From Nocardioides sp. (GTDB lineage Bacteria > Actinomycetota > Actinomycetes > Propionibacteriales > Nocardioidaceae), in contig NZ_JAPYPS010000004.1 of NCBI RefSeq assembly GCF_029937575.1, positions 16,624-80,623 on the forward strand: a DNA stretch of 64,000 nucleotides, in the 5' to 3' direction. The notes beneath the pieces are model-generated. The model did no database searches, was not told where the DNA came from, and worked only from the letters and a program-made list of their open reading frames with translations. Made by a program: the position numbers and the translations under genes. Positions within the stretch are counted from its first letter, which is position 1. Each line of letters starts with the position of its first letter. Shown piece by piece: positions 8,584 to 59,418 of the stretch.

Positions 8584-8617
8584 GGTGTCACGGTAAACCT
8601 CGGGAGCACGTCGCGCT

Positions 8618-8650
8618 GCCATGCGGCCACAATTGTGGGGTCCTGACACC
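8618..8650 (-). repeat. Solo copy of the CACAATTGTG palindromic element (site A)
   Basis: CCACAATTGTGG 8627-8638 followed by N7 then GACACC; 44 bp upstream of the acyl-CoA dehydrogenase start. Confidence 0.7.
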
Positions 8651-18105: not shown

Positions 18106-18190
18106 GTGTCCAGACGCCACAATTGTGGCGTTTGGACCGGGTTCTGAGCCGAAACCGTGCAACAACTCCACAATTGTGGGATCTCGACAC
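18106..18190 (-). repeat. Paired CACAATTGTG palindromic element, 85 bp, sites 51 bp apart (element B)
   Basis: Sites at 18118-18127 and 18169-18178, each in a GTC-N7-CACAATTGTG-N7-GAC frame; the reverse complement aligns without gaps to element D. Confidence 0.85.
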
Positions 18191-57166: not shown

Positions 57167-57251
57167 GTGTCCAAACTCCACAATTGTGGAGTTGTGACGT
57201 GCTCTGGCGCGCAAACCGTGTCAGAACTCCACAATTGTGCCGTTTGGACAG
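57167..57251 (+). repeat. Paired CACAATTGTG palindromic element, 85 bp (element C)
   Basis: AACTCCACAATTGTGGAGTT 20-nt perfect palindrome (57174-57193) plus second site at 57230-57239; centres 51 bp apart. Confidence 0.9.
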
Positions 57252-57257
57252 GAGCGA

Positions 57258-58172
57258 TCAGGCGGCGAAGTGCTCACGCCAGCGGTCGTCGAGCTTCGGC
57301 ACCTGCCGCATCCCGCGGAGGATGAGCTGGCGACGGATGCGGTGCAGGGTCCTGCCGGGCTCGTCGTAGATCCCGGCCGAGGTCACCAAGAGGATCCGAT
57401 AGCCCTCGTCGTCCAGCTCCTCGCGCCGATCGATGTCGGAGTGCCACTGGCGCGAGCTCAGGGCATGTTGACGCCCCTCGTACTCCACAACCAGCTTGAT
57501 GCCGCGGTAGCAGAGGTCGAAGCGCCGTCGCCACGTTCCGTCCTCCCAGTAGATGACGACGTTGACCTCTGGCTCGGGTAGGCCGGCGAGGACGATGAGC
57601 AGGCGCAGGCGGGTCTCCATCGGCGAGTCCACCCCCTTGCGCACGAGGTCGGCCGCGATCCGTGCCAGACCGGCGTAGTAGTCGGTGCTCTGCTTGCAGG
57701 CGCGGCGCAGCTCGGCTGGGTCGACGCCGTACTTCTCGACCAGCGCGTCGCCGAGCACCACCTGTTCCACCAGGGAGAGCCACCCTGCGCAGTCGATGAA
57801 GGTCGCGATCGGGTCGGTGGTCCGGATTCCCCGTACGACGACCACGCGACGAGGACGCGTTGTGACATGCGGCTTGATCTGCGGTCGATAGTGCCGGTCC
57901 TCCTGCTTGGTGACCGTCACGTGGGCGAACGCACTGTCGGGCACCGGAAGCCCGAGCACCTGGGCAGCACTCAGGTGACTCGCGAAGGCATCGTCGGGAT
58001 GGATCAGCAGGGCTGCCCGGATCAGCGCCAGGTCGTCGCGGTTGTCCCGGTGGACCCAGACGCCCGTGACGAGCTGCACGTAGTCGCGTCGCCGGACCAG
58101 GGCAGGGTTGATGCCCGAGGCGCGCAGCTGCCGTCTCGTGAAGGGGTGCCGCCCGATGAAGTCGCCGTCCAT
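57258..58172 (-). CDS. DUF559 (VSR-like putative endonuclease) protein with AbiEi-type N-terminal wHTH
   Basis: FTRRQLRASGINPALVRRRDYVQLVTGVWVHRDN (AbiEi-like N-term); KLVVEYEGRQHALSSRQWHSDIDRREELDDEGYRILLVTSAGIYDEPGRTLHRIRRQL (DUF559/VSR-like). Confidence 0.85.
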   Translation of the reverse strand: MDGDFIGRHPFTRRQLRASGINPALVRRRDYVQLVTGVWVHRDNRDDLALIRAALLIHPDDAFASHLSAAQVLGLPVPDSAFAHVTVTKQEDRHYRPQIKPHVTTRPRRVVVVRGIRTTDPIATFIDCAGWLSLVEQVVLGDALVEKYGVDPAELRRACKQSTDYYAGLARIAADLVRKGVDSPMETRLRLLIVLAGLPEPEVNVVIYWEDGTWRRRFDLCYRGIKLVVEYEGRQHALSSRQWHSDIDRREELDDEGYRILLVTSAGIYDEPGRTLHRIRRQLILRGMRQVPKLDDRWREHFAA

Positions 58173-58249
58173 GCAGGCACCATGCCCGGCCGGAGCCCGT
58201 CGGTGTCGTGGCTATCCACAGGCCCACAGGCGGGTCCGTCATCTGCGAC

Positions 58250-58334
58250 CAGTCGAGACGGGACAATTGTGGAGTTGTGGCAGCCTTTCGGCCCGCCGAC
58301 GTGTCAGAACTCCACAATTGTGCCGTTTGGGCAC
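58250..58334 (+). repeat. Paired CACAATTGTG palindromic element, 85 bp (element D)
   Basis: GTC-GAGACGG-GACAATTGTG-GAGTTGT-GGC and GTC-AGAACTC-CACAATTGTG-CCGTTTG-GGC; centres 51 bp apart; same orientation as element C. Confidence 0.85.
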
Positions 58335-58362: not shown

Positions 58363-59418
58363 TCAGGGCACGTCGACGACGACCAGGGCGTGGTTGTCGG
58401 GCTCTCCTGCCGCTCGTACGGCGTCGCGCACGGTGGCGACGACGTCCTCGGGTGGCGCGTCGGCCACGAGCAGTCCCGTGAGCACCGCGGTCTCGAGGAC
58501 CGCGTGCACGCCGTCACTCGTCAGGACGAGACGGTCGCCCGGCTCGACTGCGTGCACGGCGAGGTCCGGGGCGAAGGAGCCGTCGACCGCGATCGCCCGG
58601 TTGAGGATCACCCGACGGTCGTCGGCGCGCGCCTCCTCGGGGGTCAGCCTGCCCTCGTCGACGAGGGTCTGGACGACGCTGTGGTCGCGGGTCAGCCGCT
58701 CGAGCCGGCCGTCGCGGACGCGGTAGGCGCGGGTGTCGCCGACGTGCGCGACGGCCACCTGGTCGTCGCGCACCACCAGGGCCGTGAGGGTGGTCGCGGC
58801 GTCCGGGTGGTCGGCGTACTGCTCGGTGACCAGTGCCGCGGCGCGGGCCACCGCGGCGTCGAGGGCCCGCAGCGGGTCGTCCTCGCCGGCCCCGTCCAGG
58901 GCTGCCACCACGCCGAGGACGTCGGACGCCAGGTCGCGGGGGCAGCCACCGATCCCGTCGGCCACCGCGTAGACCCCGTCGGTCACCAGGATCGCGTCCT
59001 GCTGGTCCTCGCGACCACCCTGCTCGAGGTACGACGCCGCGTCGGTCGCCGGCTGTCGGGTGATGCTCATCATGGTCTCCTTGTCGTCGAGCTCGGACAC
59101 GAGGGCGGCGACGAGCGAGCGGGTGGAGGCCGCGTCGGCCTCCACCTGGCGCCAGTACGACGTGAGCTCGGCCGCCGCGGCCCGACCGGAGCGCGAGGCC
59201 AGGTCGGCCACCACCCGGATCCGGGCCAGCGGCATGCCGGCCAGTCGCAGCCGCGCCACGAGTCGAGCCCGGTCGAGCTGCTGCGGCGCGTAGCGTCGAT
59301 AGCCGCTGATCGCGTCCACCTCGACCGGGACCAGCAGCCCCATCTCGTCGTAGAGGCGCAGCGCCTTCGCGCTGAGCCCGGTCGCCCGGGCGAACTCGCC
59401 GATGCTGACGTGCGTCAT
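58363..59418 (-). CDS. MerR-type HTH + PP2C serine/threonine phosphatase fusion
   Basis: MTHVSIGEFARATGLSAKALRLYDEMGLLVPVEVDAISGYRRYAPQQLDRARLVARLRLAGMPL (MerR); REDQQDAILVTDGVYAVADGIGG, VAVAHVGDTRAYRVRDGRLERLTRDHS, LVLTSDGVHAVL (PP2C). Confidence 0.9.
   Translation of the reverse strand: MTHVSIGEFARATGLSAKALRLYDEMGLLVPVEVDAISGYRRYAPQQLDRARLVARLRLAGMPLARIRVVADLASRSGRAAAAELTSYWRQVEADAASTRSLVAALVSELDDKETMMSITRQPATDAASYLEQGGREDQQDAILVTDGVYAVADGIGGCPRDLASDVLGVVAALDGAGEDDPLRALDAAVARAAALVTEQYADHPDAATTLTALVVRDDQVAVAHVGDTRAYRVRDGRLERLTRDHSVVQTLVDEGRLTPEEARADDRRVILNRAIAVDGSFAPDLAVHAVEPGDRLVLTSDGVHAVLETAVLTGLLVADAPPEDVVATVRDAVRAAGEPDNHALVVVDVP

Follow-up and report, generated by a model that had tools for sequence, protein, structure and literature searches.

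In the DNA analysed here, a 64-kb stretch of a Nocardioides sp. genome (the window), a DUF559 nuclease gene lies between two copies of a paired palindromic element. This arrangement raises the question of whether nuclease and repeat belong together or merely adjoin. The initial annotation had placed the gene, elements C and D, and the sequences shared by the two elements, and all of these positions held (Table 1). Element C lies 6 bp from the 3′ end of the gene, and element D ~78 bp upstream of its start. The core positions in C and D confirmed that palindrome centres are exactly 51 bp apart, as had been reported, and that corresponding second units of C and D are 1083 bp apart; the altered core of D differs from CACAATTGTG by one mismatch, with its 51-bp spacing intact. 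The repeat had also been said to occur without the gene, and both copies concerned, one double and one solo, are real. The window thus contains three double elements and one solo unit. C and D had been described as direct repeats in the same orientation. They do share sequence; however, each unit is palindromic and the whole ~85-bp pair is also an imperfect palindrome, so "same orientation" has little meaning.

Table 1. Positions of the DUF559 gene and of the palindromic elements in the window
Feature	Position	Strand	Details
Element C	57167-57251	none	cores CACAATTGTG at 57179-57188 and 57230-57239; centres 51 bp apart
DUF559 nuclease gene	57258-58172	minus	304 aa, ATG start; ORF call and profile searches
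Element D	58250-58334	none	cores GACAATTGTG at 58262-58271 and CACAATTGTG at 58313-58322
Dispersed double element without DUF559 gene	18106-18190	none	cores at 18118 and 18169
Solo unit (single palindrome)	8616-8649	none	core 8628-8637; no partner at 51 bp

The 34-bp motif had 6 matches, against 0.01 expected from shuffled sequence. A scan of the source genome (4.35 Mb, 131 contigs) revealed 33 CACAATTGTG sites, 32 of which were either paired at exactly 51 bp or truncated by a contig end; a reversed control pattern had no match in the whole genome. When up to two mismatches were allowed, 16 pairs forming the 85-bp element were found: 15 perfect, 1 with a single mismatch (element D), and none with two. 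A chance origin of the element was ruled out by the motif excess over shuffles, the empty control and this mismatch distribution. Identical element sequence was present at the end of contig C62 (20956) and the start of contig C71 (29), so a copy of the element probably breaks the assembly there.

The 16 copies could be aligned without gaps, with the consensus GTGYC-N2-AWC-NS-core-SN-GWT-N2-GRCAC and many variable positions outside the cores. All 20 core bases were intact in 15 of the 16 pairs, yet the arms varied. As single strands, the copies usually formed a single long hairpin (z −2.6 to −8.8); that of element C is imperfect and had a z of −8.8. An Rfam search for a known structured RNA gave only chance-level matches, none above gathering score. 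Comparison of the copies by eye showed no joint variation of bases that pair in the arms, which, by inference, fits DNA recognition by a symmetric protein better than a structured RNA. Wherever both neighbouring genes were identifiable, the copy was intergenic and usually within a few bp of a stop codon; the neighbours were often convergent or co-directional and never divergent. Core conservation of this kind, the lack of any pair with two mismatches, and the intergenic placement support the chief rival to the reading that we develop below: the palindromes would be functional sites of a sequence-specific DNA-binding protein serving the host (an autoregulator, a terminator or a chromosome-organising factor), with mobility incidental. 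We consider this rival unlikely, although it deserves serious attention. Against it stand the occurrence of copies on both the downstream and the upstream side of the gene, their placement mostly away from promoters, and further results given below.

The DUF559 protein consists of an N-terminal AbiEi-like region and a C-terminal DUF559/REase_MTES_1575 nuclease domain (residues ~219-283). In Pfam, it matched PF04480 (DUF559) at 23.2 bits (cutoff 20.6), and REase_MTES_1575 was matched by 27 of 30 family members; PADLOC AbiEi models matched the N-terminal part in 25 of the 30. Profile matches in the PDB were 3hrl (endonuclease-like) and 3r3p (mobile intron protein, E=0.0026), the latter of which we take to be I-Bth0305I, an EDxHD homing endonuclease. 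No Y1 transposase was among the Pfam and PDB profile matches. Single-sequence structure prediction failed (pLDDT 33). Among 60 homologues, S183, E186, G233 and D246 were invariant, D219 and E230 were retained in 59, and H236 in 58. Such near-invariance of nuclease residues is a further point against palindromes that merely serve as host binding sites.

dN/dS between orthologues was 0.13-0.28. The source genome has just one close copy of the gene, and paralogues within other genomes are at most 62% identical. The DUF559 genes are, judged by these comparisons, diverged single copies under purifying selection. A weak second relative in the source genome (C80:3099-3938, L017; 28% identity) has an in-frame stop and is possibly a pseudogene. 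Relatives were absent from viral contigs and phage records, and matches on plasmids were four in number and weak. No AbiEii toxin gene was seen beside the DUF559 gene, whose neighbours, identified from translations only, are ino1 and a MerR-PP2C-like ORF. This ORF (58363-59418, minus strand) adjoins element D and, by its translation, would be an unusual fusion of a MerR-like start with a PP2C phosphatase-like remainder. Published AbiEi antitoxins bind paired 23-bp inverted repeats upstream of their own operon and autoregulate it (PMC7319586). By analogy, an AbiEi-like reader of the palindromes is plausible, though not demonstrated; the same autoregulation is also a point in favour of host-serving sites.

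The exact CACAATTGTG pair was not found in 199 other genomes of the family, and the paired pattern was absent from IMG/VR. A collection of 85,000 GTDB species gave nothing beyond one isolated spirochaete match, which is due to chance. A repeat shared throughout the genus was ruled out by these searches.

Flanks of DUF559 homologues gave a different picture once each gene was compared with its own surroundings. Flanks were scored as matching when the best match between upstream and downstream sequence was above the 95th percentile of a control set, 818 ORFs of comparable length taken from two genomes of the genus. Both-side matches were found at 22 of 29 same-genus loci (homologues of 43-67% identity; p=1e-12) and at 22 of 29 loci outside the genus, in unrelated actinobacterial families (p=4e-10), vs. 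~5% of controls. In about a quarter of homologues, no match was detected by score. Outside the genus, elements were assessed through the resemblance of the two flanks; genus and family membership of the compared genomes was itself inferred. Within the genus, most homologues had palindrome pairs on both sides, and the core depended on the species: CGCGATCGCG, TTCGATCGAA, GCGCAATTGCGC, GCCGCAATTGCGGC and TGCAATTGCA were found, and CACGTG types occurred in another clade. Palindromes with the same core were spaced by 51 bp in 21 cases and by 50-54 bp in 38 cases in total; the remaining distances were 102-103 bp (9 cases) and any other value (4 cases). Matching flanks occurred in direct or inverted order and also as 51-bp arrays.

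Three loci (L070, L072 and L079) had arrays of at least three palindromes at a regular pitch of 51-52 bp rather than simple pairs, and further arrays of this pitch were seen at G232:C1:79712-79873 and 113921-114133. In a distant DUF559 clade of same-genus genomes (L092-L097), the palindromes were centred on CACGTG (ACACGTGT, GCACGTGC) and spaced by 52-53 bp.

We also compared element number with gene presence. Pairs of GCAATTGC at 51±1 bp, with species-specific arms, were found 72, 44, 33, 32, 31 and 16 times in six genomes of the genus. All six carried a DUF559 gene, vs. 82 of 220 genomes overall (p=0.0024); gene-positive genomes contained 241 such pairs and gene-negative genomes 23, and a control pattern gave none. 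A degenerate scan for CRATYG-N45-CRATYG was dominated by coding DNA, because 51 is a multiple of 3, with about 15 background matches per genome. Only its upper tail (≥35 matches) was informative, and there 12 of 13 genomes were gene-positive (p=4e-5). These genome-level p-values are uncorrected for phylogeny. The initial annotation had pointed to enrichment of the paired element beside DUF559 genes as a check; such enrichment was found across species, whereas within the source genome only 2 of the 16 elements flank the gene. Outside the genus, dispersal was checked for mycobacteria-like elements only. In this family, CGAGYGTGC...GCACRCTCG hairpins occurred 3-22 times in each of six genomes with DUF559 matches and 0-1 times in seven genomes without them, and several copies directly bracketed a DUF559 gene.

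Genomes with several DUF559 paralogues allowed each gene to be set against its neighbours' repeats. In four genomes with 2, 6, 7 and 4 sampled DUF559 genes, the upstream flank best matched the downstream flank of the same gene for 15 of 19 paralogues; flank scores in G383 averaged 74 for the gene's own flanks and 22 for those of other genes. Such a result is not what a bystander amid common repeats would give. Three mycobacteria-like genomes (G383, G439 and G635) each carry diverged DUF559 paralogues, numbering four to seven or more, and for most of these the hairpin element is private. DUF559 orthologues of G383 and G635 were 80-88% identical and had kept their locus, with the sequence of the bracketing element altered: both copies around one G383 gene contained CGAGCGTGCAGG, and the element of the G635 orthologue contained CGAGCGTGCGAG. 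A change common to both G383 copies would be the expected outcome of concerted change. Protein distance was correlated with core distance more closely for residues 1-170 (Mantel r 0.40-0.43) than for the nuclease domain (r 0.20), in a comparison of 24 loci whose cores were assigned by hand.

A different transposase, such as a RAYT, might move the elements, with the DUF559 genes as mere neighbours; REP-like elements elsewhere do rely on HUH RAYTs, and the analysis of the source genome did not extend to Y1 transposases. This is very improbable, since most paralogues within one genome have their own element and the cores change with the protein; a passenger would share the repeats of its neighbours. 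Species-to-species change of the core is also unusual for a housekeeping site, which weakens the host-site alternative.

Closely related genomes differed in whether the locus was filled, a difference that the initial annotation had proposed looking for. The closest relative found of the source genome (G278; about 94% identical over ino1) lacks the DUF559 gene at this locus and has 212 bp in place of about 1300. It keeps one eroded element there, with cores CACCCTCGCG and CACGATCGTG still 51 bp apart. Other G278 copies have the form CACCATCGTG...CACGATGGTG. In the sample of 652 kb from this genome, five diverged family members were found on four contigs preselected as copy-bearing, and none on the other 36 sampled contigs. 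The element family therefore predates the source species and its core changes. Four of the G278 copies (L245:4042, L249:15799, L249:17924 and L248:275) mostly had CACCATCGTG upstream, with its reverse complement CACGATGGTG downstream in two; their whole element was still symmetric, with single cores no longer perfect palindromes.

A second filled/empty difference was found at another ino1 locus. G184 and G196 are about 93% identical over aligned DNA, and G184 had no DUF559 match at 1e-20; the element-gene-element block at ino1 in G196 is replaced by about 120 bp of other sequence in G184. Among 15 other G196 element sites that could be anchored in G184, 3 were full-length (some with mutated cores), ~4 were remnants and ~8 were absent. 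Half an element was retained at several G184 sites, and we dropped a reading of clean insertion. The polarity was mostly unreadable; where it could be read, the remnants show at least some of the differences to be losses in G184 and not recent insertions in G196. The pattern fits erosion of the elements after gene loss and is not proof of recent transposition. Differences in these sites between species so similar also tell against host-serving palindromes.

The block might be taken for an ordinary transposon consisting of the gene and two flanking elements, with the dispersed elements as its MITEs. The element-gene-element layout, the short internal derivatives and the existence of empty sites for the block are in keeping with such a transposon. 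It is improbable nonetheless: no near-identical second gene copy was seen, orthologues under purifying selection share their locus between two mycobacteria-like genomes, and the matching flanks vary in order and form arrays. No target-site duplication was seen either; at the G196/G184 junctions, where intergenic DNA has diverged, none was consistent.

Known systems resemble the locus in part. RAYTs belong to the HUH/Y1 tyrosine transposases, and their REPs carry a GTAG tag (PMC3733652, PMC8049555). REPIN/RAYT systems share with the present one short extragenic palindromes dispersed in inverted pairs (16 intergenic pairs here, 16-72 in six other species), a species-specific repeat, and a nuclease gene that is kept in single copy, inherited vertically and flanked by repeats of its own. 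However, the enzyme here is a DUF559/REase_MTES_1575 protein with an AbiEi-like N-terminus rather than an HUH/Y1 (IS200/IS605-like) transposase, the 16-copy alignment ends in GTGYC...GRCAC without a conserved GTAG/CGTC, the core is itself a perfect palindrome, and the pitch in the genus is 51 bp. With enzyme and tag both failing to agree, we do not file the system as a member of REPIN/RAYT. The REP/RAYT-like organisation proposed in the initial annotation is thus strongly supported, whereas its cassette-like alternative is not, because genes passed on vertically have kept elements that are private and matched to them.

EDxHD/Vsr-like homing endonucleases, free-standing or intron-encoded, have a related nuclease domain (3r3p), and such a nuclease could copy DNA by break-induced gene conversion. 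Homing enzymes target the empty allele and copy their own gene; here, in contrast, what is dispersed is short palindromes, and only one copy of the gene is kept. AbiE type IV toxin-antitoxin systems share the AbiEi-like N-terminal region, but no AbiEii toxin was seen adjoining, a nuclease domain is fused, and the sites, found on either side of the gene, are also scattered elsewhere. Like the present elements, MITEs mobilised by IS transposases are short, non-autonomous and palindromic; in the present case, no autonomous IS with these ends and no target-site duplication was seen, and the core is conserved while the arms drift.

The results show that the gene is bracketed by its own element, copies of which are scattered through intergenic DNA; that the element is private to each gene lineage; and that genomes rich in copies carry the gene. 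We hold with high confidence that the DUF559 gene and the paired palindromes are one real gene-repeat partnership. How the partnership works is less certain. The account that we prefer, with moderate confidence, is a domesticated nuclease that binds and nicks the cores, leading to slow copying and homogenisation of the element without movement of the gene; each of these steps (binding, nicking, copying) is an inference. Binding to the palindromic cores would be the task of the N-terminal AbiEi-like region, with proteins probably paired across two sites at a distance of 51 bp (about five helical turns). Nicking or cutting at the bound cores would fall to the C-terminal Vsr/EDxHD-type nuclease. 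Repair or hairpin-templated copying may then result in slow spread and homogenisation of the element. The gene would remain in place in single copy, analogous to RAYT, and its loss would leave the elements to erode. This account is weakened by the modest copy number (16 in the source genome) and by the quarter or so of homologues without a flank match, and intact cores with drifting arms also fit a binding site kept by the host.

We found no paper linking DUF559 to palindromes, mycobacteria or repeats in open-access full text, although an earlier report cannot be excluded. Our results suggest a previously undescribed nuclease-repeat partnership with REP/RAYT-like organisation and an unrelated enzyme. 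They also suggest a second origin of the REPIN/RAYT strategy. A 2013 survey reported one large REP superfamily (CGTC) apparently without a dedicated transposase (PMC3733652), which leaves open whether enzymes other than HUH transposases drive palindromic repeats. Whether a phylum-wide, HUH-independent class of selfish or domesticated gene-repeat systems exists, with every AbiEi-Vsr/EDxHD nuclease recognising and spreading a palindrome "word" of its own, and with protein and word changing together, is in our estimate evenly balanced. If so, it would take in many unexplained actinobacterial DUF559 genes and intergenic palindromes, also those of mycobacteria. The DUF559 nuclease genes of actinobacteria, widespread and patchy in distribution, lack an explanation, and the link to private palindromes provides them with a testable substrate. 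The many paralogues with their own palindromes form a natural series of matched proteins and targets from which a DNA-recognition code could be read. The partnership is also a possible route for the spread of short palindromes in GC-rich genomes.

ino1 adjoins or lies near DUF559 genes in eight other genomes of the genus (G196, G197, G138, G091, G136, G224, G287 and G079) as well as in the window, sometimes with the DUF559 gene in opposite orientation, and the interval looks like a favoured or ancestral home of the gene.
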